Of a stretch of DNA of 52,329 nt, positions 21,359 through 41,504 are shown piece after piece. The position numbers were made by a program, and so were the translations under genes. How positions within the stretch are numbered: the stretch's first letter is position 1; each line of letters opens with the position of its first letter. The notes below the pieces were generated by a model. It was not told where the DNA came from. It made no database searches and saw only the letters and a list, made by a program, of their open reading frames with translations. This DNA comes from Gemmatimonadota bacterium (GTDB lineage: Bacteria > Gemmatimonadota > Gemmatimonadetes > Gemmatimonadales > Gemmatimonadaceae): NCBI GenBank assembly GCA_027307165.1, contig DAHUXM010000023.1, forward strand, positions 1-52,329. Reading direction: 5' to 3'.

Positions 21359-21757
21359 CTACGCCGTCGCGCGGAATGGCTCAAAGGGCGAGATCCCGAG
21401 CCTCAGCTGCATGCCGTACGCGATGCGATGTGCCAGTTCCTTCATCAGCGAAGCCGACGGCCCTGCGAATCGCGCATCGACCACGCGCTCCAGCGTTGCA
21501 ACCCAGCGCGCGAAGTGGTCGCCGGTGAGACCCGGCATTGCCATGTGCGGGCGGAACGCGTTGCCGGTATAGCTGCGCGTGCGGAACAACAGCGTGGACC
21601 AGAACGCAACGATCTTCGGCATGTGCACGGACATGTCGACTTCCGCAAAATATTTCGCAAGCAGCGGGTCGGATGCGATTATCGCGTAGAACGCCGTGAG
21701 GAGTTCGTCGAGATCCTCATCGCGGACGTCGCGCCGGATCGCGTTCACGTCATGCAT
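21359..21757 (-). CDS. Group III truncated hemoglobin
   Basis: 132 residues matching the trHb group III pattern: LLTAFYAIIASDPLLAKYF (helices A-B), HMPKIVAFWSTLLFRTRSYTGN (helices C-E) and PHMAMPGLTGDHFARWVATL. His71 or His81 would supply the proximal haem ligand; group III proteins conserve the PH...HFxRW stretch. These bind O2 or NO, and their physiological roles are mostly untested. The stop of the upstream cupin gene overlaps the start by one base, so the two are coupled. Confidence 0.85.
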   Translation of the reverse strand: MHDVNAIRRDVRDEDLDELLTAFYAIIASDPLLAKYFAEVDMSVHMPKIVAFWSTLLFRTRSYTGNAFRPHMAMPGLTGDHFARWVATLERVVDARFAGPSASLMKELAHRIAYGMQLRLGISPFEPFRATA

Positions 21758-22146
21758 CAGATGTGTGGCGGTGCCGCGTCCGCGTTGGTGTTCCCATGCA
21801 CCACGGTGAGCAGAAAGACGCAGCCGTCTCTCGACGATGCCGCGTGCTCGACGCCGCCTGCGAAGACCAGAACGTCGCCCTTGACGAGATGATACTCGCC
21901 ATCCATCGCGCGGAATGTTATCTCGCCGTCGGTCACGTGAATCGTCACGGGATTATCGGCGCTGTGCGGCGGTAGATCGCCGCCGGGAGGAAGCGCCATC
22001 AGCACCAGGCGAAGCGGGCCTTCCTTTACGAGAGTCCGGGCAGTCCGGTCCCGCTGCGCGAGAAGCTCACGGTCGATTATGAGTTCATCCTGCGACAGGT
22101 GATGGACGAGAACCTCGCCTTCGATCGTTCTGTTCATCGACGACAT
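21757..22146 (-). CDS. Cupin-domain protein
   Basis: 129 residues. A single cupin barrel is indicated by LRLVLMALPPGGDLPPHSADNPVT (motif 1, with H but without the usual HxH pair) and YHLVKGDVLVFAGGVEHAASS (motif 2, with the His of PxxxxH). The metal set is therefore incomplete compared with classic cupins. The substrate is unknown. It overlaps the truncated hemoglobin gene, suggesting a shared stress or nitric-oxide role, which is inference. Confidence 0.75.
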   Translation of the reverse strand: MSSMNRTIEGEVLVHHLSQDELIIDRELLAQRDRTARTLVKEGPLRLVLMALPPGGDLPPHSADNPVTIHVTDGEITFRAMDGEYHLVKGDVLVFAGGVEHAASSRDGCVFLLTVVHGNTNADAAPPHI

Positions 22147-26072: not shown

Positions 26073-27230
26073 TCACTTCACTAGAATGACCCGCTGCAGC
26101 AAGCCCGGCGTGGTTCCGATGGTTCCACCGGGGTCGTTCGCGATTGTGAAGTGTCCGGTTATCACTCCATTTGGCGTGCCAGGGAGCGGTGGATAGTCGA
26201 TCACTGCGGCGCCTATCGTTACGACCTTGTAGCAGACACCGGTACCCGTCGTCTGGCCGGAACAGGCGGCCCCGTCCGTCGCAGGCTTGTCCGTCGGATA
26301 CGTTGCTCCGGGATCCGTAGTGGGATTGTCGTACAGCGCGAATTTCATCGTGCACGGCGTGTTGTTGCTGCAGAACGTCCTTACCCCCTGCCTTGTCTGG
26401 CCGACGATGTTACCGGTCTGAACGTCGATGTTGTCACCTGCACCGATCGCATAGGATTCGCTGCAGTTGGCCGCAAGCTCGTTGCCGTACTGGTTCCCGC
26501 CGCGATCGCCGGGTTGCAATCCGATGATGTTGAAGCTTCCGGGCGTGTTGGCACTGTTGGGGCACGTAGCGTGGCCGGTGGATCCATCCTTGAGGCAGAA
26601 GATCAGCTGCGACGAATTGTTGTGCAGCGTGCTGTAATCGATTCCGTCCAGAACGCGCAGAGGATTGCGGGCAACGCCGCCGCGGAAAGGATCGAGTGCG
26701 GCCAGAAGCAGCGAATAGTCGACCGCGAGCGGCTTGATGCATGATGTCTTGTCAACTGTTGGCGCGACCCACGCCGCAGCCACGGCACCGACGTTTCCGT
26801 TGGTCGCGTTGAGAACAGCGGAGAACAGATAGCTCGTCGGATCGCTGCCCGTCACCTGCACTGCATTGTCGGTTGAAACGCACGGAAGCGCGTGCGGCGA
26901 GCCTGAATGCCACGTGTTGGGCGTCGTGCCATTGACGGGGAGCCCATCCCACACGCCGCACATCACATCGCCGACAACGAGCGCCGCATTGTGCGTCAGT
27001 ATCCGGTTCCTGTTTCCCGCGGCAACCGCCGAATCCGACACATGATTCGTAGTCACCGAGAGATGCAGCGCCCCTGAAAGCGCAGCGGCATCCGATGCAG
27101 TCTGAAGCTCATTCTTCTGCACGTACAACCGACTCAGATCTATCACGAACGCAAGCATGATCACGAGCGTGGCGACCGCGAATGCGGCCAGAATCATGAT
27201 CGCTCCCCTTCTGTTCTTCAACCTCGGCAT
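26073..27230 (-). CDS. TadG-like pilus assembly protein (second copy)
   Basis: 385 residues. The start MPRLKNRRGAIMILAAFAVATL is a prepilin-like segment (Gly-Ala junction) leading into one membrane helix and the TadG signature VIDLSRLYVQKNELQTASDAAALSGA. The rest is a secreted Gly/Ser/Thr-rich domain with several Cys pairs. TadG proteins belong to the minor or surface part of Tad pili. GGAGG precedes the ATG. It is clearly a paralogue of 27264-28334, sharing the start and the C-terminal GHF...V-LV ending. Confidence 0.85.
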   Translation of the reverse strand: MPRLKNRRGAIMILAAFAVATLVIMLAFVIDLSRLYVQKNELQTASDAAALSGALHLSVTTNHVSDSAVAAGNRNRILTHNAALVVGDVMCGVWDGLPVNGTTPNTWHSGSPHALPCVSTDNAVQVTGSDPTSYLFSAVLNATNGNVGAVAAAWVAPTVDKTSCIKPLAVDYSLLLAALDPFRGGVARNPLRVLDGIDYSTLHNNSSQLIFCLKDGSTGHATCPNSANTPGSFNIIGLQPGDRGGNQYGNELAANCSESYAIGAGDNIDVQTGNIVGQTRQGVRTFCSNNTPCTMKFALYDNPTTDPGATYPTDKPATDGAACSGQTTGTGVCYKVVTIGAAVIDYPPLPGTPNGVITGHFTIANDPGGTIGTTPGLLQRVILVK

Positions 27231-27263: not shown

Positions 27264-28334
27264 CTACTGGACAAGGACGAGGCGCACGAGCGTTCCATAC
27301 TTGGTTCCGATCGCGCCCTCGTCGATCGCGCGAACGAAATGTCCGGTGATCTCGGATCCCTTGTTGCTCACCTGATCGAGCGTGAAGCCGGAGATCATTC
27401 GTATCGTGACTGGATACTTGCCATTCGATTTTGGGCCGACAAGGTCGAACAGCGGGATTTTGACGGCCACACCAGCAGATCCGTCCGCGTTCCTGCACGT
27501 GTAAGTCGGAGGGTTGCCGGAGCACATTCCCGGCTGATTACACAGGATGCAGACGTTGGAGCGCGTGGGACCGGCCATGTTGCCCGTCTCCGTGTCGATG
27601 ATGTCGCCCGGTCCGAGCACGACAGGATAACACGTGTTGATGTACGTGCCGTATGCATTCGCACCGTTCCCGAAGTCCATCGCGCCGAAGTTTCCCCCGG
27701 ACGGGGATGGGGGCGCGCCCTGCTTCAGCGTGACGGTCAATTGCGATGCCGGGAGCGTAGCGAGCTGCATCAGATCGGCAGCCGTGAGATCCCTGTCCGG
27801 CGGCGCCGATGCATTGAGCCGCTTCGTGAGCTCCGAGTAGAACATCCCCCACGGCTTCACGCAATTCGAGCTCGTAACCTGCGGCGCCGCCCAGGCCACG
27901 GCGATCGTGTGAACCTGTTGCGCCGCAGCCCCCAGTACCGACTGGAACAGATAGCTGGTCGGGTCGCTCCCCGACACCTGCACCGCGTTATCCGCTGCAG
28001 TACAGGGCAGCGTGTGCGGCGATCCCGCACTCCAGCCGTTCGTCGTTCCGTCCCACACGCCGCACTGGACGCTCGATGCGGGAAAGGTCGTTGCACGCCC
28101 GAGCACCAGATTCCGAGCGCCCGCAGTGCTCGCGACAGCGGCGACTTGCGACGGATCTATCAGCAGTTGAATCGCGGACGCGTGCGCTGCAGCATCCGTC
28201 CCGGTCTGCAGCTCGTTCTTCTGCACCAGCATGCGGCTGACGTCGATGACGAATGCAAGCATGATGACGAGCACCACCATCGTGAACGCCGCAAGTAAGA
28301 GTATCGCCCCCTTCCTGTTCTTCAGTCTGGGCAT
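27264..28334 (-). CDS. TadG-like pilus assembly protein (first copy)
   Basis: 356 residues. MPRLKNRKGAILLLAAFTMVVLVIMLAFVIDVSRM is followed by LVQKNELQTGTDAAAHASA, the N-terminal anchored helix and the TadG motif. The periplasmic part differs from its neighbour but keeps the GSDPTSYLF motif and a C-terminal GHFVRAIDEG...VRLVLVQ. The tandem arrangement, 33 bp apart, indicates duplication and divergence. Its position at the 3' end of the tad operon supports a pilus role. Confidence 0.85.
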   Translation of the reverse strand: MPRLKNRKGAILLLAAFTMVVLVIMLAFVIDVSRMLVQKNELQTGTDAAAHASAIQLLIDPSQVAAVASTAGARNLVLGRATTFPASSVQCGVWDGTTNGWSAGSPHTLPCTAADNAVQVSGSDPTSYLFQSVLGAAAQQVHTIAVAWAAPQVTSSNCVKPWGMFYSELTKRLNASAPPDRDLTAADLMQLATLPASQLTVTLKQGAPPSPSGGNFGAMDFGNGANAYGTYINTCYPVVLGPGDIIDTETGNMAGPTRSNVCILCNQPGMCSGNPPTYTCRNADGSAGVAVKIPLFDLVGPKSNGKYPVTIRMISGFTLDQVSNKGSEITGHFVRAIDEGAIGTKYGTLVRLVLVQ

Positions 28335-28361: not shown

Positions 28362-29276
28362 TCACTTCGCGAACAGTTTCATCACGTTCATCGCAACGGG
28401 TCCCAATATCACTATGAAGATCGACGGGAAGATGAACAGCCCGAGCGGCAACAGCATCTTCACGGGCAGAGTGGCGGCCTTCTTCTCAGCGGCCTGTCGC
28501 CGCAGTCGGCGCAGCGTCTCCGAGTAGACGCGCAATACGCGTCCGCTGCTCGTTCCCCATTTCTCACCCTGTATTATGTGCGACACGAGTGTCCTGATCT
28601 CGTGCACACCCGTCCGAGTCCACAATCCGCGCAATGCGTCCTCGCGCGACATGCCCGCGTTCGTCTTGCGGTTCACGATCACGAGCTCGCTGGCGAGTTC
28701 CGGATGGACGCCGCCGAGCTCTCTTGCGACACGCAGTATCGCCGCATCCAGGCTTATTCCGGCCTCGATACACACGACCAGCAGATCCAGTGTATCCGGC
28801 AGCGATCGGCGGATCGTCTCCTGCCTCAAACGCACCGCGCGCACCAGATACCACGCAGGAAGCAGCGCGGCAACTATCGCTGCCGAGGCGACGTACATCA
28901 CCACGCGCGCGAAGGTCTGCTTGGGCGCCAGCAGCAGCACCAGCACGGGGATGCCAACGAGCATCGCTACCCTGATCGCCGCATATGTGAGCGGCGCGGT
29001 CGCGGAGTCGTAACCGGCCTGCACCAGCGCCGTTTCGGTCTTCGCATTGTTAGCCCACGCCTCGGGGACGAACTCGGCCAGCACACGTGTGAACGATCGC
29101 TTCGCGCTCTGCGCGCCCGCTCCGAACAGCCTGCCGTACGACGCGCTCTGTGTCTGCACCGCTGTGCGATCGACGATGCTGCGTCGCGACCGCTCGAGCA
29201 GATAGACGTATGCCGCAGCGCCGAGCGATGTGATGCCGAGAAATACGAGCGCCGCGAGTGCCAGTGGGCTTGTCAT
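28362..29276 (-). CDS. tadC: TadC, inner-membrane platform protein
   Basis: 304 residues of the type II secretion F fold. It has a first membrane helix (LALAALVFLGITSLGAAAYV), two central helices (VAMLVGIPVLVLLL, ASAAIVAALLPAWYLV), the T2SSF motif SLPDTLDLLVVCIEAGISLDAAI and a final helix. With TadB it forms the membrane platform for TadA-driven pilus assembly. It follows tadB after 16 bp. Confidence 0.9.
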   Translation of the reverse strand: MTSPLALAALVFLGITSLGAAAYVYLLERSRRSIVDRTAVQTQSASYGRLFGAGAQSAKRSFTRVLAEFVPEAWANNAKTETALVQAGYDSATAPLTYAAIRVAMLVGIPVLVLLLAPKQTFARVVMYVASAAIVAALLPAWYLVRAVRLRQETIRRSLPDTLDLLVVCIEAGISLDAAILRVARELGGVHPELASELVIVNRKTNAGMSREDALRGLWTRTGVHEIRTLVSHIIQGEKWGTSSGRVLRVYSETLRRLRRQAAEKKAATLPVKMLLPLGLFIFPSIFIVILGPVAMNVMKLFAK

Positions 29277-29292
29277 TTCGGATAGCTCCGCG

Positions 29293-30243
29293 TCATGTGT
29301 CTATCCGTGCCATCTTCATCATGATCATGTACCCGATGATGCAGGAGACAACGCCGCCAGCCAGCATGTAGTGACCGGCAGTGCTCGATCTGAACGGCGC
29401 CACGAAGGTCGGGTTCAGCGCGCCGAGCAGGAGAAAGATCACGACCGGCAGCAGCGAGAGAAAACGTCCCGAAAGCTTGGGCTCGGCCGCCAGCGTATCG
29501 ATCTGTCCGCGCAATGCGACCCGCTCGCGCATCAGGGTGCCGAGATTGCCGAGAAGTTCGGTCAGGTTGCCGCCGGTCTCGCGCTGGATGAGTACGGCGG
29601 TCACGAACATCTTGAGGTTGAGGCTGTCGATACGCTCGTGCATCGCAACCAACGCTGTTCGAACGTCGATTCCAAGTCGCTGCTCGTCGTAGAAACGGCC
29701 GAACTCGGTGCCCAACGGCGCTCCAAGCTCTTCGCTGATGAACTTTGTGGCCGCCTGGAACGAATAGCCCGCCTTCATTGCGTTCGACATCATGTCGAGC
29801 GCCTCCGGAAGCTGGGCATCGAAGGCGGCGATTCGTCTGCGTTGTGCGTAGCCGAGCCACACCCATGGAATGAAACCGGCAACGACGGCCAAAAGAACGG
29901 ACATCAGAAAGCCCGCCCTTGCACCAAGCGCGAGACCAACGACAGCGAGCAGCGCGGAGAAAAGCAGGAAGACGCCGGGGTTCTGCGCCGAACCGGCGCG
30001 CTGCAGGCGTGTGTTTATCACGTCCGTTACGTCGCGCCCTTTCAGCAGACGATCGAGAAACGGCACCTCGCTCACTGCGTCGTCCTTCAGAATCGTCTGA
30101 GGACCGTTGATGAGCGTCTCGCCATGCAGCCGCAAACGTACCGCGTCGGCCTCGGCCAATGCGCGTCTGTTTGCAAACAGGTAGGCGCCGACGATTACGC
30201 CGAGCGTCGCGATGAATACACCAGCGAGGAGGATGAGCTGCAT
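29293..30243 (-). CDS. tadB: TadB, inner-membrane platform protein
   Basis: 316 residues. An N-terminal helix (LILLAGVFIATLGVIVGAYL), the paired helices near 105-145 and the T2SSF core QLPEALDMMSNAMKAGYSFQAA followed by IQRETGGNLTELLGNLGTLMRER identify TadB. Two C-terminal helices end in MMKMARIDT. The gene starts 5 bp after tadA, so it is strongly coupled. Confidence 0.92.
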   Translation of the reverse strand: MQLILLAGVFIATLGVIVGAYLFANRRALAEADAVRLRLHGETLINGPQTILKDDAVSEVPFLDRLLKGRDVTDVINTRLQRAGSAQNPGVFLLFSALLAVVGLALGARAGFLMSVLLAVVAGFIPWVWLGYAQRRRIAAFDAQLPEALDMMSNAMKAGYSFQAATKFISEELGAPLGTEFGRFYDEQRLGIDVRTALVAMHERIDSLNLKMFVTAVLIQRETGGNLTELLGNLGTLMRERVALRGQIDTLAAEPKLSGRFLSLLPVVIFLLLGALNPTFVAPFRSSTAGHYMLAGGVVSCIIGYMIMMKMARIDT

Positions 30244-30248
30244 CGCCG

Positions 30249-31697
30249 TCAGCGCTCCGAGAAGATGGTCGGCCCGAACTCCACGCCCGCGAGGCGGAGA
30301 CGCTCGGTAAACGCAGGCCGGATTCCCGTCGGCTCGAAGTCGCCCAGGACGGCTCCGTCGGCGGCAATTCCGCGGCGCCGGAATCTGTAGATCTCCTGCA
30401 CCGAAATCACCGCTTCCTCCATCCCCGTCACCTCCACGATGCTCGTGATCCGGCGAGTGCCGTCGGACAGGCGTGACACCTGAATGATCACGTTCAGTGC
30501 CGACGAGATCTGTTCTCGCATCGCTCGGTTGGGCAGATTCGTTCCAGCCATGAGGATCATCGTCTCGAGACGGGCGAGTGCGTCGCGCGGACTGTTGGCG
30601 TGAATCGTGGTCAGAGATCCCTCGTGACCGGTGTTCATTGCCTGCAGCATGTCCAGCGCCTCCCCGGATCGCACCTCGCCGACGATAATTCTGTCCGGCC
30701 GCATGCGCAGCGCATTCTTGACTAGATCACGCGCAACCACCTCGCCCTGCCCTTCTGCGTTGGGCGGTCGGGTCTCCAGCCGAACCACGTGGTGTTGCTG
30801 CAATCGCAGCTCGGCTGCATCCTCGATCGTGATTATGCGATGGTCCGCCTGGATGAACGATGTGAGAGCATTGAGCAGTGTCGTCTTGCCGGCACCGGTA
30901 CCGCCCGAGATCAGAATGTTGAGCCGCGCGTTCACACAGCCGGAGAGCAGTTCCATCATCCCTTCGCTCATTGCACCGTTGGCGAGCAGGTTGTCGATCG
31001 CCAGATCGGCACCGAAGCGGCGAATCGACAATACCGGCCCGTCGAGCGCGAGCGGCGGAATTATGGCGTTCACGCGCGACCCATCCGGCAGGCGCGCATC
31101 CACCATCGGTGACGACTCGTCCACGCGACGTCCCACCCGACTGACGATGCGGTCGATGATCGCGGTGAGATGCGCATCATTTCTGAAGGACGTGGCGACC
31201 CTCGTCAACTTGCCGCGGCGTTCGACGAAGATCATCTTCGAACCGTTCACCAGAATGTCGCTGATGGACGGATCGCGGAACAGCGGCTCGATCGGTCCGA
31301 GTCCGATCACCTCGTAAATGATCTGCTCGATGATCTCGTCACGCTGGCTCTGGCTGAGCGGAGTGGGTTCATCGCGCAGAAGATCCAGAACCGCGCGCCG
31401 GATCTCCGCCGATATTACGCGCTCGTCCTTGATCTGCTCCAGCGCGTCGAGATCGAGTCGCTCGATGAGCCTGCGGTGCAGATCGCTCTTGAGCTGATCG
31501 ACAGTGCCGAGCGTTTCTTCCTCGATGCGGTGCGTGTACATGCCCGATGCAGCTGCTGCCGGCGCCGGCTTCGTCGGCCCCGGCGTCGGGAACATCGGCG
31601 AAGTTATCGTCACAGCTGGCGCGGCTGTTGTCGCACCACCGTTTCCGTTGGCATCTGGCGACGGAGCGCGTCCCATCAAACGGCTTTTAAGTGACAC
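30249..31697 (-). CDS. tadA: TadA/CpaF-type pilus assembly ATPase
   Basis: A 482-residue secretion ATPase with a GTG start. The N-terminal 75 residues are Ala/Pro-rich. The core shows [12 protein letters not shown], Walker [17 protein letters not shown], the Asp box and Walker [21 protein letters not shown], and the His box [15 protein letters not shown]. It powers Flp pilus extension, and in some Tad systems retraction. It overlaps tadZ by 11 bp. Confidence 0.96.
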
Positions 31698-32904
31698 TTG
31701 GAGACCTCCCGGTCAGTCCGAACAGACTGCGCAGACGTGAACGCTCCGGCGCTGCCGCGGTTGCGGGACGCACGGGATCGCGCGGCGCTGCGGCCCCGCG
31801 CAGCTTGGCCGCGAGCTGCCCGTAGCTTCGCGCCAACTTGGATCCCGCCGCCTCCTGCGACACCGATATTCCCTTGTTCAGCGAGGCAACCGACGTCCGA
31901 TAATCATTCGGCAGATTCCAGAAGAGCTCGTGCTTCAGCGATTCGGCAACCATCGACAGCGTGAACACATCGCCCGACTGGAACCGGTTGAGCACCACGC
32001 ATGACTTTGTCTCGGCGTAGCCAAGCCTGCGAAACAGCGACAGCGTGCGTTGTGTGCTGCGCAGCGATGGGACGTTGGGCTGGGTGATGAGAGCGATGCG
32101 GTCGGCTGCATCGAGGATCGCGAGCGTTCGCTCGCTCAAGTGATGCTCGCAATCGATCACGGTAACGTCGAAGTTGGCGCGCAGCTGATCCACCACGACG
32201 CCGACAGTAGCGGCGTCGAACGCGTCGTCCATCACCGGATCCTCACTGGACGGAAGGACCGATACGCCCATCGGTCCCTGAGTCATGAGCGACGTCAGCA
32301 ATGCGCCATCGACCGAGTCCAGCTTGTCCACCAGATCGCTGATGTCGTACGCAGGCTGCAGGTTGAGGAACACGCGCACGTCGCCGCCGGTGAATACACA
32401 GTCGGCCAGCGCGACCTTCGCGCGCGTATCGTTCGCAGCAAACGCCTGCGCCATGTTCACCGCGATGCTGGTGGTTCCGAGTCCGCCCTTGGCGCTGTAT
32501 ACCGCTATCACCTGGCCGCTATGATCCGTGGCGCCGCCCCGAATTATCAACCGCTCGACGGCGGCCGCGAGGTCCTGCTGAGTCGGTGGGAAGACGAGAA
32601 ACTCGTGTACCCCCGCCCGCATGGCGCGCAGAATGAGATCCGGATCGGCCGTTGGCGCCGTGCCGATCACGGACAGGTTCGCGCGCCCTCTGATCTCCCG
32701 CTCCAGCATCGCGAGCTGACTCGGCTCGATGCGGTGCAGCGGCACTATCAGCAAATCGAACGGCTCCGCGCGCAACCGTCCAAGCGCCTGGTCCAGCCGC
32801 GGCGATGGAACGATCGTCGTGAAGCCGAAACGGCTGAGCGCGTCCGCGACCATGTCGGGCGAGCCAGCGGAATCCGCGACGACGATTGCGCGACGCTGCG
32901 TCAT
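31687..32904 (-). CDS. TadZ/CpaE-like pilus localisation protein
   Basis: 405 residues. An N-terminal receiver-like domain ([20 protein letters not shown]) precedes a MinD/ParA-type ATPase with the deviant P-loop [18 protein letters not shown], and [23 protein letters not shown] as the Walker B region. TadZ proteins localise the Tad machinery at the pole or another site. The ATG lies directly after the secretin terminal stop (32905-32907), which supports the extended secretin reading frame. Confidence 0.92.
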
Positions 32905-33069
32905 CTAGCGAGGCTCCGGTTTCGCAACGGGCGGAAGCCGATCCTGTATCGCGCCCCGCGCAGGAAGTGCAGTGTCCGGAATGATCGGCAACGTATCCAC
33001 GGGCCGCGTGTGCATCGGATCGATCACCACTGGAGTGACGACAACCAGCAGCTCAGTCTGGTCGTTCTG
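32905..33069 (-). other. In-frame C-terminal continuation of the secretin gene beyond an internal TGA
   Basis: Directly after the TGA at 33070-33072, 54 codons remain open in the same frame to a TAG at 32905-32907. They encode QNDQTELLVVVTPVVIDP, the strongly conserved end of secretins (usually xNxTELvvvVTPxLV), then a Pro-rich tail. Without readthrough the protein would lack the last strand of the secretin domain. The frame ends one base before tadZ, the spacing expected for the intact operon. Confidence 0.85.
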
Positions 33070-34191
33070 TCACTGCGTGCTCGAGAAGAGCTGGCCCAGA
33101 ATGGGAATGTCCTGCAGGAACGGGATTCCGGTCTTCACGAGATTACGTGAATTGTTGAACAGTCCGGAGATGATCAGGCTCTCGTCTCGCCGGACATCGA
33201 CCGTGGTCGTCACACGTCTCGTCTGGAATGCCGGGATGCGGAATCCCGACAGAGTGATCGCATTGTTGTTGTCGATGCTCGAGACTTCCGGCGCGAGCGA
33301 CAGCTTGACGAGACTGTCGTTCAGAATCTCCGGCACGAACTTGAGCTTCACACCGAACTCCTTGAACATGATCGTGACCGTGTTGGAGCCACCGGCGGTC
33401 TGGCTTCCCTGCACGATCGGAATCGGAACCTCGCCGCCGGCGAGGAACGTTGCGGTGTCACGATTCGCGGCAAGCACGTCCGGCTCCGCAAGCGTCCGGG
33501 AAAGACCCTTCTGCTCGTTCGCGTCCAGCAGCGCGAGCAGTCGCTTGGTGTTGAAGTCGGTCAACACGGTCAGGAATCCGGTGGTTCCGGGGAGCGTGAT
33601 CGACCCGTCGGCGTTGAATGGGTTGTCCGTATTGAACGTGCCCGTCCCTATGCGCTCGTGACCCTGGGCGTCGCGATATCGCGCAGATACGCCGATCGTC
33701 CTGAGCAACGTGCGATTCACCTCTGCGAACCGTATGTAGACAGCCACCTGTTGCCGATCCGAAGGGGACCGCACCGACACACGCAGGTGCTGCCGTGTCC
33801 CGTTCGCGAGCCAGAGGACAGCGTCCGTCTCGCCGATCGCTTTCGCGTTTATCACGAATTCACGACCGCTCACGACTACGAGATCCGCGATGTCCGGCGA
33901 GGCGACCGACGCCTTTGTGAGCGCGACCGGTGTAGTAACCGGCAGCGATCTTCCCACGGAAAGCTCGATCAGGGAGATAGGGTCGGCGCGTCCCTGCGTC
34001 TCTGGTCCGTAAACGGCTACACTCTGCGCGAGCGCGACGCCCGCAGTCATGACCGTGAACACGCCCGCGGTCGCGAGCGCTGTCGCCGTGTGCCGAATGT
34101 TCGTAAGGGACAAGAATTCCTCGCTGAATGAAGAAAGAGCGCGTGCAACCCTGCTGCGAACGGTCCTGCATCCCACCATCCCCCGCCTCAC
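33070..34191 (-). CDS. RcpA/CpaC-type secretin, ending at a premature TGA
   Basis: 373 codons to the TGA; the intact frame would be 428. It is the outer-membrane channel of the Tad pilus. Seen: a signal peptide around ALATAGVFTVMTAGVALAQ, the pilus N-terminal domain (LSVGRSLPVTTPVALTKAS), the GSPD-like domain RTLAEPDVLAANRDTATFLAGGEVPIPI, and SLIISGLFNNSRNLVKTGIPFLQD just before the break at LGQLFSSTQ. GTG start, overlapping cpaB by GTGA; a TTG at the LSLTNIRH codon is another possible start. The stop sits where the family has an aromatic residue (consistent with TGG to TGA). Confidence 0.9.
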   Translation of the reverse strand: MRRGMVGCRTVRSRVARALSSFSEEFLSLTNIRHTATALATAGVFTVMTAGVALAQSVAVYGPETQGRADPISLIELSVGRSLPVTTPVALTKASVASPDIADLVVVSGREFVINAKAIGETDAVLWLANGTRQHLRVSVRSPSDRQQVAVYIRFAEVNRTLLRTIGVSARYRDAQGHERIGTGTFNTDNPFNADGSITLPGTTGFLTVLTDFNTKRLLALLDANEQKGLSRTLAEPDVLAANRDTATFLAGGEVPIPIVQGSQTAGGSNTVTIMFKEFGVKLKFVPEILNDSLVKLSLAPEVSSIDNNNAITLSGFRIPAFQTRRVTTTVDVRRDESLIISGLFNNSRNLVKTGIPFLQDIPILGQLFSSTQ

Positions 34192-35105
34192 GGCGATTTC
34201 GGAACGCCACCGGTGCTCGGCTTCTCGAAGGTCTGTTTCGTCGGCTTCTCGCCGCGATACACGCTTACTGTCACCGAATCCGGCGGTGCTGGCTTGGCCA
34301 TCACGACCGCTACTGGCACCGGTTTCGGAGGCGCGACAACGTGCTTGCGAACCTCACGATGCGCCTCCGCAGGCTTGACGGCGGGCGCTCCGCGCAGCAG
34401 GCCAAGCACGTCCATGGACGTCGCTCCGGCGGTGCGAACCGTATCCGGATCGCCATACCCGCGCAGAACCAGTTGTATGCTCCCCTTGTTCATCGCAACG
34501 GCGAGCTGCTCGGCTTGCTGCGGCGTCACGCCAAGCGTGACAGTGGTCGCGTTGTTGGGCTTGCCGTCGGCGTCACGCTGCACTGCCGTCCCTACAGACA
34601 GCACCCGCATGTTCTCCATGAACAGCTTTGCCATCTGTGTATCGCGGTTGTTCGCATCCTCGGCGAGAGTCACGAGAACGTCGACGCGGCTGTTCGGCTG
34701 AAGCAGGCCGCTTATGCCTGCGACATCGTTGATGCGCACCGCCATCGCGCGCGTCCCCGGCGCGATCTTCTGCTCGAGCCCCGCGCCCGCGCCGACCGGC
34801 GCCAGCCGCCCCGGTACTATCGCCTCGCCGTTGAAGATGGCGATGCGCGTGACACGCCCTACCGCCGAGTCGACCGAGGAGAATGCTCCGACAGGAACAG
34901 TCGCGATCGGCCAGTTTCGCGTGGTGAGCGCGAGGCGGTCGAGTGACACTCCTTCCGGGAGATCCTTCGTCGCGATGACTACAGGCCGAGTCGGAACTCG
35001 CGTCTGGTCGCGCAGCGCCCCCAGCATGCGGTAGGCGCCGAACGTCGCGAGCGCCGCGACTATGAGAGCGCCATAGAGAACCATCGTGTACCGTCGTTCA
35101 GCCAT
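34188..35105 (-). CDS. CpaB/RcpC-like Flp pilus assembly protein
   Basis: 305 residues. One N-terminal membrane helix (MVLYGALIVAALATFGAYRML) is followed by an SAF domain (RPVVIATKDLPEGVSLDRLAL) and the RcpC/CpaB region LLQPNSRVDVLVTLAED...TVTLGVTPQQAEQLAVAMNKG. It is a periplasmic component that stabilises the secretin or the pilus channel. The C-terminus is Pro/Lys-rich. Its stop overlaps the secretin start. Confidence 0.9.
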   Translation of the reverse strand: MAERRYTMVLYGALIVAALATFGAYRMLGALRDQTRVPTRPVVIATKDLPEGVSLDRLALTTRNWPIATVPVGAFSSVDSAVGRVTRIAIFNGEAIVPGRLAPVGAGAGLEQKIAPGTRAMAVRINDVAGISGLLQPNSRVDVLVTLAEDANNRDTQMAKLFMENMRVLSVGTAVQRDADGKPNNATTVTLGVTPQQAEQLAVAMNKGSIQLVLRGYGDPDTVRTAGATSMDVLGLLRGAPAVKPAEAHREVRKHVVAPPKPVPVAVVMAKPAPPDSVTVSVYRGEKPTKQTFEKPSTGGVPKSP

Positions 35106-35171: not shown

Positions 35172-35591
35172 TCAACCGGTACTTCGCTCGAGGCGAAACG
35201 TCGCCTGCCGAGTGATGTTGATGTTGGCGCCAAGGAGCGACGCGAGCGGCGTTATCGTCGGCCAGGGATAGTTGGTGACCTTGACGATCACGCTGCCTGG
35301 CACTGTTGCGACATCGATGGTGATCTCGGCGTCGGTGATTGGGGGACTGCCGAACGGAGTGAACGCAGCTTCGACGCGCGCCTTGACCACTGCCTGACTT
35401 GCAACCGGATCGGCCAGCACCGCTGCCTCTCTTGCACCCTCGCGCACCGCGCTCGCCATGCTGTTGGCCGTGAACAACAAGCGCCCGAAGTCGATCACAC
35501 CCCACACGAGCAACAGGAAGATCGGTAGCACGATGGCCATCTCGACCATCGCGGCACCGTCATCTCGGCGAAAGAGTCTGGGCAGACGCAT
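35172..35591 (-). CDS. tadE: TadE-like pseudopilin
   Basis: 139 residues. The start is the ATG at 35589-35591, giving MRLPRLFRRDDGAAMVEMAI: a prepilin-type leader with cleavage after DDG and Glu at +5, then the hydrophobic helix VLPIFLLLVWGVIDFGRLLFTANSMASAVREGARE, the TadE signature. It is processed by the adjacent peptidase. Longer in-frame upstream codons are shadow sequence of that gene. Gap to the prepilin peptidase stop: 11 bp. Confidence 0.92.
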   Translation of the reverse strand: MRLPRLFRRDDGAAMVEMAIVLPIFLLLVWGVIDFGRLLFTANSMASAVREGAREAAVLADPVASQAVVKARVEAAFTPFGSPPITDAEITIDVATVPGSVIVKVTNYPWPTITPLASLLGANINITRQATFRLERSTG

Positions 35592-35602
35592 GCGATCCTC
35601 GG

Positions 35603-36145
35603 TTACGCCAGTGGTAGCAAAGCGGCAGCCATCGCACCGAACGCGAGCGCGACGCCATAAGGAATCGCGCGGCGCGATTTCACATCGACACTGTGATTTA
35701 CGATCCTGCGTGGATTGGCTATTGCCATCGCGGCAGTCGCGGCAGTTCCGCTGACACCGTACGCGAACAGCATCCACACCAGGGCCAGAACTCCGCCTGC
35801 CAGGGCGCCAATGAGGGCGCCATCGAGCGTCCGCGCCGGGCCAAGCCACGCGCCCGCAGCCGCGAACAGCTTGACGTCGCCAGCTCCCAACCACCGAACC
35901 ATGTAGAGCGGCAGCCACAGCGCCAGGCCAAAGAGCAATCCGCCGAGACTGATGATCAACGCATGGGCTGGTCTTGCTGCTGCCGCGGCGGAATAGGCCA
36001 TTCCGGTCGCAGCGAGAAGACCCGCGACACTGTTTGGAATCCGTCTGCGTTGAAAGTCGGATACACAGGCGCACAACAGAAGCGTCGCAAATATCGCGAA
36101 GCCGACAACCGACATTGTTGAACCTGCGAACAAAGATGCTTTCAT
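35603..36145 (-). CDS. Prepilin peptidase (TadV/CpaA, A24 family)
   Basis: 180 residues and about six hydrophobic helices. The two catalytic aspartates of A24 proteases are visible in CVSDFQRRRIPN and GAGDVKLFAA. It lacks the N-terminal methyltransferase domain of PilD, as expected for TadV/CpaA. It cleaves the Flp and TadE leaders after Gly. Confidence 0.93.
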   Translation of the reverse strand: MKASLFAGSTMSVVGFAIFATLLLCACVSDFQRRRIPNSVAGLLAATGMAYSAAAAARPAHALIISLGGLLFGLALWLPLYMVRWLGAGDVKLFAAAGAWLGPARTLDGALIGALAGGVLALVWMLFAYGVSGTAATAAMAIANPRRIVNHSVDVKSRRAIPYGVALAFGAMAAALLPLA

Positions 36146-36488: not shown

Positions 36489-36668
36489 TTACGCACCCGC
36501 GATTGCGTTGCTGACGTTTGTAAATGCTTGGTTGATCTGTCCGCCGAGTATCCCGACGATGGCTGCGCACACCGCGGCGATAAGTGCGACCATCATCCCG
36601 TACTCGACCATCGTTGCTCCATCTTCATCCGTCAGAAACGAACGGAAACCGCCAGTGAGCTTCTTCAT
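36489..36668 (-). CDS. flp: Flp-family type IVb pilin (copy 2, first gene of the operon)
   Basis: 59 residues with an ATG at 36666-36668 preceded by GGAGAGG. MKKLTGGFRSFLTDEDG is the leader; ATMVEYGMMVALIAAVC follows the cleavage site with Glu5/Tyr6. It ends NQAFTNVSNAIAGA. It is the first gene of the Tad operon, presumably the most strongly expressed pilin. It shares DEDGAT-VEYG with copy 1. Confidence 0.92.
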   Translation of the reverse strand: MKKLTGGFRSFLTDEDGATMVEYGMMVALIAAVCAAIVGILGGQINQAFTNVSNAIAGA

Positions 36669-36756
36669 CGAAACCTCTCCTAACAAAATGAAGGGTGTGT
36701 GCGCTCCGATAATCCGACGACCAGAGCGCCCTCGTAACAGACGTTGCTTGCCGCTG

Positions 36757-36772
36757 GGCCAGAGGTGTGCCA
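36757..36772 (-). promoter_or_regulatory. Possible sigma-54 promoter upstream of the Flp operon
   Basis: On the minus strand TGGCACACCTCTGGCC has TGGCAC (-24) and GC at the proper -12 distance (GG-N10-GC); the -12 box is TGGC rather than TTGC. The leader to the flp ATG would be about 78 nt. This is the only promoter-like signal I see in the 375-bp gap to the next gene (36669-37043); no sigma-70 pair is convincing. Confidence 0.3.
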
Positions 36773-37043
36773 TTTTTTGCTCTCGGCTGCAACTGTTTAC
36801 GTTTGCTCCCTCGGAAAGGAACAACGGGGCCGCCATTTGATCGAATCAAATCCTTACGATTCGGGGATTTGCAGTGCGTATCGATGCATTCGCACGCTGC
36901 AGTACAGATCGATGCTGTGAGCGTCGAGCCTGCGCCTTTCAGGGAATCAGTGCCGCGTCACTGTGGCTTCCTTGCATCACTTGGTGCGACACCGCCACGC
37001 GCGTGCGCGCGGGCGAGCCACAAGCGCGATGGCGCACTAGCGC

Positions 37044-37805
37044 CTATTGGTAGGCGCGGACAACTGCAGGTAGATGTATTGGCCCCAATGCACCGACACG
37101 CATCCGATACGCAGCGTACTCCGGAAACACAGCCATCAGAAGACCCTCTTCGTATCTGATGCGCGCCCACGTCATCGTGAACCAGATCACCATGAGGATC
37201 GCGACCTGCATCGTCGGGTGTTGAATCGTGACGCCCGCATAGCTCAGCGTGTATGCCAGATAAAGTGGATGCCGGGCGATCGCATACGGTCCCGTCGTAA
37301 CCAGTCCCCGCGCCGCCGGCTCGAGACTAATCGAGTACCGGAGGTACCACAGTCCCCACGCGGACATGCACGCGCCGCTCAGGATGAGAACGCTTCCCGT
37401 CGGTACGGCCCAATGTGCGATCGTCGGAAACGTACGCGTGACTGGCGTCAGCCACGATGGCTCTCGTGATGCCGCAAACGCGAGAAACAGTGGCACCGCG
37501 AACGTCCCGCCGTACGCCGCGATCCGCGGACCCAGCCCGCGTACGGAAGCGCGTGCGCGTCGCCGGCCGAGGAACGCAAGTCCCGCCGCCACCTCGTACG
37601 CGAATACCGGTATCAGCGCCAACGACACCGTCGGTGCGATTCGTACATCCCATGCGGCAAGCGCGAGGAATGCAAGACATCCCACGATGTCGGACCAGTG
37701 CCGGCCTGGCGCGTTCGCGGACGCCTCGTCGTGAACCACTACCCGGGTGGTTGGCGCCGCGCTCGCTGTCGCAGCGGGGGGCGTTACGGGGGTCGAGTTG
37801 CGCAT
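37044..37805 (-). CDS. Isoprenylcysteine carboxyl methyltransferase-family membrane protein
   Basis: 253 residues with about six membrane helices. The C-terminal region matches the ICMT/PEMT family: GPYAIARHPLYLAYTLSYAG and RYEEGLLMAVFPEYAAYRMRV, with the RHP and E-E residues for S-adenosylmethionine binding. Bacterial substrates are mostly unknown; prenylcysteine is unlikely. It lies 187 bp downstream of the kinase gene; 37806-37992 contains no gene I can support. Confidence 0.75.
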   Translation of the reverse strand: MRNSTPVTPPAATASAAPTTRVVVHDEASANAPGRHWSDIVGCLAFLALAAWDVRIAPTVSLALIPVFAYEVAAGLAFLGRRRARASVRGLGPRIAAYGGTFAVPLFLAFAASREPSWLTPVTRTFPTIAHWAVPTGSVLILSGACMSAWGLWYLRYSISLEPAARGLVTTGPYAIARHPLYLAYTLSYAGVTIQHPTMQVAILMVIWFTMTWARIRYEEGLLMAVFPEYAAYRMRVGALGPIHLPAVVRAYQ

Positions 37806-37992
37806 CGTTTTCCTGAAGGAGCCTGTAGCATCACTTCGTGAGCGCGCGGTCTCGCATCAACGCATGTTGCCTTGCGTGTTGCTCGGCGGTACCGAGTGGC
37901 AACGCGGCGATGGACCGATGAAAAATGTAACGTGCTGGAATGCGGAATGCGATGCGGATGGCGAGCCGCCGGCCGCATAACAGTCGCGATCT

Positions 37993-38913
37993 CTACGCGT
38001 CGCGCGGTGCGAGCCCGAGCATCCTTCGCATCATCGCTCCCAACGGCAAGCTGCCCTGCGCGGCCTCGCCGTACTCCACCGCGTGGACGAGCGCAACGCC
38101 GTCGCGGGGCCTCAGGTCCGGCTCCTTTGCGAGACAGCTCATCACCAGCTTGCAGAACCAGGCCGGCGTTCCGGTCTGGTGCGTTGACAGCGAGACTGGA
38201 CGCTCGGCGATCTGGGCGGCGATCAGCCTCTGTGCCGTATGCGCGGTCGGAAAGGGATGGTGTCCGGCAATCATCTCGTACGTCACGACACCCCACGAAT
38301 ACACGTCGGTGCGCGCATCTATCGCGTCGCCGCATGCCTGCTCCGGCGCCATGTAAGCCGGCGTGCCGAGCGACGTCCCGAGGCTCGTGAGCGTTGGATC
38401 CGCCGCCTCCGTCCGTGCCTGGTGCAGCGCGTGCGCAATCCCGAAATCAGTGACGGACGCCGCGCCGCCCGTCAGGAGGATGTTATCCGGCTTGATGTCG
38501 CGATGCACCATCTCCGCGTCGTGCGCAGCTGCAAGCGCCTTCGCAACGTCGCCCGCAAGCTGGACCGCCTCCGCGTACGGAATGCGCCCGCGTCCAAGCC
38601 GCACCCGCAATGACTCGCCGCGCACGAATGGCATTATGTAGTACGGAATCTCGTCGGTCGTGTGACCGGCCGAAAGCACAGGCACGATGTGCGGGCTCTG
38701 CAACGTCGCTGCAGCGTGTACTTCGCGCGCGAACCGCTGCACCGACACGCCGGATGCAAGCTCGGGGAGGAGCGCCTTGATGACGACCTGTCGGCCAAGA
38801 CTCGTGTCGTCCGCAAGAAAGACGCGCGACATGCCGCCACCGCCGAGCTCGGCGCCCAGCGTGTACGCGTCGCCGAGCGCGCTCTGCAATGACTCGCGCA
38901 GGTCAACAGTCAC
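37993..38913 (-). CDS. Hanks-type Ser/Thr protein kinase
   Basis: 306 residues if started at the GTG at 38911-38913, which overlaps the stop of the preceding gene as GTGA; an ATG at 38944-38946 would add 11. It has all kinase elements: gly-loop ELGGGGMSRVF, VVIKALLP (Lys), VHRDIKPDNILL (HRD), VTDFGIA (DFG) and GTPAYMAPEQ. It stops soon after the kinase fold with no membrane helix or sensor domain, unlike many PknB-like proteins. It is the last gene of the operon that begins with the porin at 41504, so its signal may come from the membrane or periplasmic partners encoded upstream. Confidence 0.92.
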   Translation of the reverse strand: MTVDLRESLQSALGDAYTLGAELGGGGMSRVFLADDTSLGRQVVIKALLPELASGVSVQRFAREVHAAATLQSPHIVPVLSAGHTTDEIPYYIMPFVRGESLRVRLGRGRIPYAEAVQLAGDVAKALAAAHDAEMVHRDIKPDNILLTGGAASVTDFGIAHALHQARTEAADPTLTSLGTSLGTPAYMAPEQACGDAIDARTDVYSWGVVTYEMIAGHHPFPTAHTAQRLIAAQIAERPVSLSTHQTGTPAWFCKLVMSCLAKEPDLRPRDGVALVHAVEYGEAAQGSLPLGAMMRRMLGLAPRDA

Positions 38914-39179
38914 GTCCGATACCAGACCCGGAGAAACTGATACCATTCGTTCACCGACGTCATCGCCTCCTCCGTCTCCACCCGTCCGTCGTTGGTCCCC
39001 TCGCTCCTGTCCAGCGTGATGTTCGGGAGCACGACCGTTTCGACATTCGTGGGCTCGATGCCGTTCGCCTGGATCCACTCGTTCGCCGCCGCGACCGCCG
39101 CGTCGAAGTTCTCCATCTGATCAGCGTGAAGCATGCCGCGCTTGATGAGGTGTGGCGCGAAGTCGTGATAGGCGATCAT
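38910..39179 (-). CDS. Small protein of unknown function
   Basis: 89 residues, starting at the ATG overlapping the upstream stop (ATGA). The sequence MIAYHDFAPHLIKRGM...MENFDAAVAAANEWIQANGIEPTNVETVVLPN is mixed alpha/beta and soluble, ending in VNEWYQFLRVWYRT. It has no signal or membrane segment. The pattern of a short DNIETVVLPN-type strand plus a helix is not enough to assign a family. Coupling to the kinase and the membrane protein suggests a shared role. Confidence 0.75.
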   Translation of the reverse strand: MIAYHDFAPHLIKRGMLHADQMENFDAAVAAANEWIQANGIEPTNVETVVLPNITLDRSEGTNDGRVETEEAMTSVNEWYQFLRVWYRT

Positions 39180-39832
39180 TGTCCGGTCGTTGGTTGCGGC
39201 GGTGACGGAGCCGGGCCGCTGTCGGCCTTCTGCGCCACGCCCATCTCCTTGAGTTTCCTGCCCAGCACCTGCTCGGCCTGCTCGTAAGTCGCGTGCAGGT
39301 CGTTTTCCGACGTTACGACTTCGCGCAGATAATTGTCGGCGCTGCGCACAGCCAGGTCGGCGTCGCCAGGCTTGAAGTTGCTGGCTTGCATCATCGACTG
39401 GAAGCCCGCACGACTGTCTTCCCGGAATCGGTCCTGGAGCGTGTACGTCAGCGAGAGCGCGCGCACCGTTTCGTAGTCGAGATGCGTCAGCGCGCCGGTC
39501 AGGGTCGCGGTCTGCCACGCGGTCTGCAGCAGGAAGGGAGGTCTCAGGCCGTCGATTCCTACCGAGCTCTGAAATTCCGCCTGCGTGCGTATCGAGTGCG
39601 ACTTCTCCGCCTTCTGCAGTATGGAGCGAAGCCCTTCGTGATACAATAGAATGTCATCGACGCGAGCCTCGTTCTGTCGTATCTCCGTCGCGAAATTGGA
39701 CATGGATTCGGTCGCGAGCTCGCGCGCTGCTCTGTGCTGCTTCCACTGATCCACCCACAGCGCCAGAAGAATGCTCACAGTCACGGCAATCGACTGAACT
39801 ATCACCTCTGCCAGCCACGCGGGTTTGCGCAT
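39176..39832 (-). CDS. Single-pass membrane protein of unknown function
   Basis: 218 residues. One N-terminal helix (VIVQSIAVTVSILLALWVDQW) is followed by a long extracytoplasmic, mostly helical region (HRAARELATESMSNFATEIRQ, probable coiled coil) and a Pro-rich end. It resembles DUF6090-like proteins with an N-terminal VSIllALWVDxW helix; I am not certain of the family. It overlaps the next gene by ATGA, and its upstream neighbour lies 26 bp away. Confidence 0.7.
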   Translation of the reverse strand: MRKPAWLAEVIVQSIAVTVSILLALWVDQWKQHRAARELATESMSNFATEIRQNEARVDDILLYHEGLRSILQKAEKSHSIRTQAEFQSSVGIDGLRPPFLLQTAWQTATLTGALTHLDYETVRALSLTYTLQDRFREDSRAGFQSMMQASNFKPGDADLAVRSADNYLREVVTSENDLHATYEQAEQVLGRKLKEMGVAQKADSGPAPSPPQPTTGQ

Positions 39833-39858: not shown

Positions 39859-40401
39859 CTACTTGAGCGGATACCCCGGGTCCGACGGCAGCTTGCCGTC
39901 GATCCTGAGAACCTTCGAGTTGGGCGTTACCGCCGAAGCGAGAACGAAGGTAATCGATCCGGGAACGTTGTCCACGAGATTGATGGCCATGTCCGAGCTG
40001 TACACGATCTTGGGACCGCCGGCCACTTCGGCGCGGAACATCTTGCCGATCCAGTACTGCCTGAACTGGTCCTCGTCCATGCGATAGATCAGATCCAGCA
40101 CCACGGCCCGCTCGGGCGCAACGGGCGCGCGAACCAGCAGCGTGATCTTGGACCGGTCAGGCCAGAACTGTTGCTGGCCGAGGAAGATCCTGCGCAATTC
40201 AGCGAACGAAATATCCGTCACGGCCGTGTGCGGATTCACAACTATCGCGACCGCCTGACGCGCGGCGGAGCCGCCAGCCTGCGCATCGGCATGGCCGAAC
40301 GGGATGCACAGCATCAACGCGCAACCGAGCATCACATGCACGAGTGATCGCGCAAGCACCGCGCGCACTCCGTATCGCGATACGCGTTGCTTCTCCATCA
40401 T
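39859..40401 (-). CDS. Short PstS-like periplasmic binding protein
   Basis: 180 residues with a signal peptide (SLVHVMLGCALMLCIPFGHADA). The mature part matches the short phosphate-binding-like family: VVNPHTAVTDISFAELRRIFLGQQQFWPDRSKI, FRQYWIGKMF and the late GSITFVLAS. It is only about half the size of a full PstS, so anion binding is uncertain. Its start overlaps the porin stop. A binding-protein-plus-porin pairing is known from other Gram-negatives. Confidence 0.78.
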   Translation of the reverse strand: MMEKQRVSRYGVRAVLARSLVHVMLGCALMLCIPFGHADAQAGGSAARQAVAIVVNPHTAVTDISFAELRRIFLGQQQFWPDRSKITLLVRAPVAPERAVVLDLIYRMDEDQFRQYWIGKMFRAEVAGGPKIVYSSDMAINLVDNVPGSITFVLASAVTPNSKVLRIDGKLPSDPGYPLK

Positions 40402-41504
40402 GGCTGCGCAGGGTTGTGGTCGCCGCCGCCGAGGTTGGGAACGGTAAAGCTGGCCTGCACGTACGCGCCGTTGGACCAGTCGTACGTCTCGAACCGTTCG
40501 CGCCGGTATTCCGCCTTGAGCGCGGCGAACGACGTGAAGTCGTAGCGCAGTCCCGCAATCCCGCCGTCGTAGCCGAGACTCAGCGGCGCGAAGATCACGT
40601 CACCTCTCCCGATCGTCGTACGCTCGACGCGCACGTACGGCTTGAATTGCCGTGCATCGCCGGTTAGACGATACGCAAGCTGGACGTAGCCCGCATGACT
40701 GCGCGTCGTGGCGCCGCCGGCAATGGGAGTGTGATCGATCATCGCGTATTCCGCGATGAACTCCGGACGCTCACGCTGCCAGGCGACGTACGCCGATGAG
40801 ATTCCTTCGGTCGCGCTCGGACCGCTCGCCTCGCTTACGCGATCGCGGTAGTAATCGGCGCCGATCTGCATTCCGAACAGTGCTGACGGGCGTGCGGAGA
40901 GCGCCAGCGTCCAGGCGCGGTTTCCATTCACGTCGCCCGCATCGCCAGCGCGCGATATCACGCTGCCGCGACCGTTGCCCACACCAGCCATGTATTGCAG
41001 CCCGAGCTCGTCCACCGGAAGGTTGCCCTCCGCGAATGCCCCGACGAAGTGCGTGGGGATGAGCTGGCTGCCGAACTTGATCATCTCCGGACGCGATACC
41101 GTCGTCTGCAACCAGGTACCGTGATGGAACGCCGTGTTCCAGTACCCGATCGGTGTGTGGTAGCGGCCCACGGACAGCTTCACGGCATCGCTGAAGTCGT
41201 ACCGGAGAATCGAGCGCTCGACCTCGAAGGCGTAACCCGTCGATTGCGCCGTGGCGCTGAATTCACCGAAGTAGTTGAGCCGATCGTTGAAGGAGACGAT
41301 GACGTGGCCAACCATCTGCCCGAGCTGGAATCCTGACGGAATCTTCCGGTCCGTCGCAACGTACGTCGCGTCGCCAAAGAGCATCGCGCGCACGACGGGC
41401 ATCGGAGGCAGTACGGGCTGGACGGATGTGGTGTCCTGCGCGCGTGCCCTGGGCACGGACGCGAGAAACATTGATACGACTGCGGCCGCGAGCGGTTTGC
41501 GCAT
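40398..41504 (-). CDS. Outer-membrane porin-like beta-barrel protein
   Basis: 368 residues with a signal peptide (LAAAVVSMFLASVPRARA). The body is rich in alternating aromatic and polar strands (SVGRYHTPIGYWNTAFHHGTW, NYFGEFSATAQSTGY, FKPYVRVERTTIGR). GRYHTPIGYWN is like the phosphate-selective porin and related families. It opens the five-gene operon down to the kinase. It ends in DHNPAQP without the usual terminal Phe. Confidence 0.78.
   Translation of the reverse strand: MRKPLAAAVVSMFLASVPRARAQDTTSVQPVLPPMPVVRAMLFGDATYVATDRKIPSGFQLGQMVGHVIVSFNDRLNYFGEFSATAQSTGYAFEVERSILRYDFSDAVKLSVGRYHTPIGYWNTAFHHGTWLQTTVSRPEMIKFGSQLIPTHFVGAFAEGNLPVDELGLQYMAGVGNGRGSVISRAGDAGDVNGNRAWTLALSARPSALFGMQIGADYYRDRVSEASGPSATEGISSAYVAWQRERPEFIAEYAMIDHTPIAGGATTRSHAGYVQLAYRLTGDARQFKPYVRVERTTIGRGDVIFAPLSLGYDGGIAGLRYDFTSFAALKAEYRRERFETYDWSNGAYVQASFTVPNLGGGDHNPAQP

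Follow-up and report, generated by a model that had tools for sequence, protein, structure and literature searches.

The window, that is, the whole 52,329-base stretch of DNA analysed here, is a complete contig of a genome assembled in 37 contigs, and carries on its minus strand the genes of a Tad (Flp, type IVc) pilus. These code for an Flp/Fap pilin (36489-36836), a TadV-like prepilin peptidase (Peptidase_A24; 35603-36145, intact), an RcpC/CpaB-like protein (34188-35105, intact), a secretin of the RcpA/CpaC type, a TadZ/CpaE-like ATPase (31687-32904), a TadA/CpaF-like ATPase (T2SSE; 30249-31697, intact), TadB-like and TadC-like proteins (both T2SSF; 29293-30243 and 28362-29276, the latter intact) and two TadE/G-like proteins (27264-28334 and 26073-27230). 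The secretin gene thus has tadZ, tadA, tadB, tadC, rcpC and the prepilin peptidase and Flp pilin genes nearby, as expected for a Tad secretin.

An in-frame TGA at 33070-33072 interrupts this gene. On the minus strand the frame runs ...LGQLFSSTQ, TGA, QNDQTELLVVVTPVVIDP..., with 54 sense codons leading to a TAG (32905-32907) that directly adjoins the ATG of tadZ (32902-32904) in the sequence TAGATG, exactly as a sequence-only reading of this DNA had described. The part before the stop (33073-34191) comprises 373 codons that cover the pilus N-terminal domain (PF13629) and positions 1-151 of the Secretin profile (PF00263), and the tail with its TAG (32905-33069) holds 54 conserved codons, including the motif of the last secretin strand, TELLVVVTP. 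With the tail, the match to PF00263 extends over all 169 of its 169 positions; truncation at the TGA removes the last 18 and leaves both Pfam domains recognisable. Among solved structures, the Tad secretin RcpA (8odn) is nearest in sequence (best PDB match, E = 5.8e-43); its alignment spans the stop site, where the site residue pairs with Leu, and continues up to the counterpart of TELLVVVTP. A (T/S)EL-hydrophobic-(T/S)P motif in the lost part is present in 23/23 homologues. Since the tail supplies positions 151-169 of PF00263 and aligns with the end of RcpA, the two parts belong to one secretin gene, as had been proposed, and the tail is, judged by its sequence, the true C-terminal end of the protein. 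The earlier prediction that the last secretin strand would be lost is consistent with both the Pfam and the RcpA alignments, and the consequence for the pilus would follow from it. In operon context and domains the gene resembles RcpA/CpaC; it differs in that its frame is cut by a TGA before the last strand, in the studied genome only. The complete domain does not lie in one unbroken frame because of this TGA, so that the gene counts, by sequence, as a broken or truncated member of the Tad secretins.

The genome carries two further secretin-like genes, 32-33% identical over the matched part and with intact C-terminal motifs. They resemble the secretins of different secretion or pilus systems and probably do not stand in for the Tad secretin.

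The codon at the stop site in related genomes

The same-genus genome G002 is syntenic with the window at about 94% DNA identity and carries TGG (Trp) at the site, with nearly identical flanks and the same residues just upstream. Among the 23 homologues that could be aligned through the site, none has a stop there: the codon is TGG in 12, TTC in six and TAT in one, and the four distant sequences have ATT, ACG, GCG and GCT. The residue in close relatives is therefore Trp, Phe or Tyr, and never Cys. Other secretins of the family do contain internal stops (L005, L007, L011, L012 and L014), but these lie elsewhere, and the site codon itself is a sense codon in all five. A scan of the genome_contigs collection returned distant relatives only, and one of IMG/VR returned none.

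The sequence-only reading had proposed that a TGA conserved together with its flanks in relatives would support recoding. A search pattern for the site with TGA matched only one of 179 family genomes, the one under study. As a positive control, the same pattern with TGG found 30 sites in 26 of the 179, and reversed patterns gave zero matches in both searches. Because the TGA pattern occurs in a single genome and the TGG pattern in 26, that expectation fails, and the site patterns speak strongly against a conserved recoding event, which we rejected. What is found instead is an intact orthologue in a close relative with a sense codon one change away, as in a nonsense pseudogene.

Selection on the tail, the operon and the genome

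Over 1287 bases, comparison with G002 reveals neither a frameshift nor a gap, in agreement with the earlier claim that the tail is free of frameshifts. The 54 codons of the tail differ by 13 synonymous and two non-synonymous changes (dN/dS of 0.046, compared to 0.07 upstream of the stop). A tail evolving without constraint along the entire branch from the split should have collected some 18 non-synonymous changes on it (probability of two or fewer, 2e-6). Should the two that are observed both postdate the stop, its origin would fall, at the 95% bound, no earlier than roughly the final third of the branch; this estimate takes the neutral rate to be the synonymous rate and divides the divergence evenly between the two lineages. 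The neighbouring tad genes, compared with G002 in their own frames, likewise lack indels and have dN/dS values of about 0.06-0.14, which bears out the view that the rest of the operon is intact; values for the over-extended or doubtful ORFs at 29273-30367, 35172-36074, 37784-38335 and 38910-39518 were ignored. Since both tail and operon show the mark of purifying selection, the lesion is, on this sequence comparison, recent.

Three other segments of the window stand out in the alignment with G002. The Flp pilin region (36489-36836) is 88% identical, with a gap, and is more diverged than the remaining operon. The gene at 40398-41504 shares 82% identity with its counterpart and has a dS near 0.88, compared to 0.1-0.3 in its neighbours, suggesting replacement by recombination or transfer. 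The gene at 21757-22146 shows a one-base indel that may reflect a frameshift in either genome or an alignment effect at the gene end.

On a wider scale, 235 conserved genes (95,381 codons) were compared with G002 after tightening ORF selection, whereby over-extended ORFs, with apparent stops near their starts, and doubtful short ORFs were set aside. Within this sample, the genome under study has no internal nonsense change other than the secretin TGA. The sample amounts to about one eighth of the genome, includes the window itself and thus does not give an unbiased rate. With one such change in 235 genes the genome shows no general decay, a point that counts against a nonsense mutation, and we rejected both general decay and an error-rich assembly as explanations.

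Stop codon usage and decoding machinery

As the sequence-only reading had noted, TGA terminates many other genes: it ends 110 of 200 sampled long coding ORFs of the genome, in which it is the commonest normal stop, and 17 of the 29 that lie within the window. The base that most often follows a terminal TGA is C (46/110), so that TGA-C, which is also found at the in-frame TGA of the secretin gene, is an ordinary stop context here.

An Rfam search found 48 tRNAs, and with anticodons assigned by ARAGORN none of them has a UCA anticodon. The single tRNA-Trp carries the anticodon CCA; its anticodon stem has all 5 bp (CCGGT/ACCGG), and it has A9 and G24. In E. coli, UGA is read through by tRNA-Trp, and this is enhanced by a 4-bp anticodon stem (PMC13092985); the tRNA-Trp features linked to UGA readthrough are the 4-bp stem, A9C and the Hirsh substitution G24A (PMC13092985), all three of which are absent from the tRNA-Trp sequence found here. 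A suppressor tRNA was therefore rejected: the tRNAs that the search yielded include no UCA anticodon, and the tRNA-Trp is of the canonical type. The genome likewise does not fit a code in which UGA means Trp (table 4), where a UCA-bearing tRNA-Trp and a TGA unused as a stop would be expected. Like the systems described in PMC13092985, the secretin gene has UGA at a Trp position; unlike them, it lies in a genome where TGA is the commonest normal stop and the enhancing tRNA features are missing.

A search of the genome with a SelB profile gave no match over the cut-off. A selenoprotein would call for SelB and for homologues with Cys or Sec at this position; with the SelB profile below its cut-off and no Cys in the homologues, selenocysteine was rejected. 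The same search picked up a 21-residue EF-Tu-like fragment at the ends of two contigs (G000:C5:4-66 and G000:C24:27683-27745), suggesting that these contigs were broken in assembly at a duplicated tuf gene.

Interpretation of the interrupted secretin gene

The reading that we consider probable is a recent TGG-to-TGA nonsense mutation in an otherwise intact Tad operon, with pilus export probably disabled. The change is present in the assembled sequence and restricted to one genome. A recent G-to-A transition would have turned the Trp codon TGG into TGA; translation would then end with residue 373, the product would lack the barrel's last strand and the 54-residue tail, and the outer-membrane pore would not be expected to fold or assemble. 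Export of the Tad pilus would fail in this strain, save for trace readthrough by its normal tRNA-Trp, and a stop lying about 165 bases ahead of the tadZ start codon might in addition reduce the translation of tadZ through uncoupling. We thus infer from the sequence a truncated secretin and an unexported pilus. The case matches recent nonsense pseudogenes of bacteria in its single TGG-to-TGA transition, its intact close relative and its lack of further decay in gene or operon; it differs from them in nothing and would be an ordinary example.

The main competitor, to which we give a minor though appreciable chance, is that the assembly shows at this codon a consensus error or the base of a minority strain and that the true gene is intact. 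In its favour, the difference is a single base within a gene otherwise under purifying selection, and the 37 contigs, with EF-Tu-like fragments ending two of them, are what a short-read assembly breaking at a repeat would leave. However, the absence of any other internal nonsense codon in 95,381 codons shows that the assembly is not error-rich, and the site lies deep inside a 52-kb contig, far from its ends, since the window is the whole contig. We regard it as very unlikely that programmed or tolerated readthrough of UGA as Trp, or selenocysteine recoding, yields a short and a full-length secretin. The conserved tail and the Trp codon of relatives at a site that tRNA-Trp could misread would fit such a scheme, but TGA occupies the site in no other of the 179 family genomes, the features known to enhance readthrough are missing from the tRNA-Trp, the tRNAs found include none with UCA, SelB falls below the cut-off, relatives never carry Cys and the TGA-C context is the commonest for an ordinary stop. 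A young mutation accounts for the conservation of the tail, so that its translation is not required. Low natural misreading of UGA as Trp would restore the residue of the relatives, and nothing suggests that it is used; functional readthrough is improbable, and we see hardly any likelihood that the species makes mostly short secretin, with a small UGA-Trp readthrough fraction of full length limiting pilus assembly. Just as little probability attaches to a functional truncated secretin with a dispensable tail and a neutral change: the loss is limited to 55 codons and both Pfam domains can still be matched, but the lost part includes the end of the Secretin profile and the motif shared by every homologue.

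The sequence-only reading had left three options open, namely a recent nonsense mutation, a sequencing error, or programmed readthrough or recoding. The first two hold up, given the TGG of the congener and of most close homologues; the third does not, with TGA at the site in 1/179 genomes, no suppressor or selenocysteine machinery found and an ordinary TGA-C context. Ordinary explanations suffice, and a new mechanism is unneeded.

Recoding would have mattered if true, and the comparative test gives it no support. The nonsense mutation that we favour has little importance beyond annotation: gene callers will report a truncated secretin, and a Tad-positive label for the studied genome needs qualifying. 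In two of three same-genus genomes, G001 and G003, one of which is 89% complete, the secretin has no close relative (best E values of 3e-20 and 3e-16, no better than other secretins give), and the Tad operon therefore looks patchy in the genus. This patchiness makes a recent strain-level loss plausible, and the TGA could mark the recent loss of the Tad pilus in one strain.
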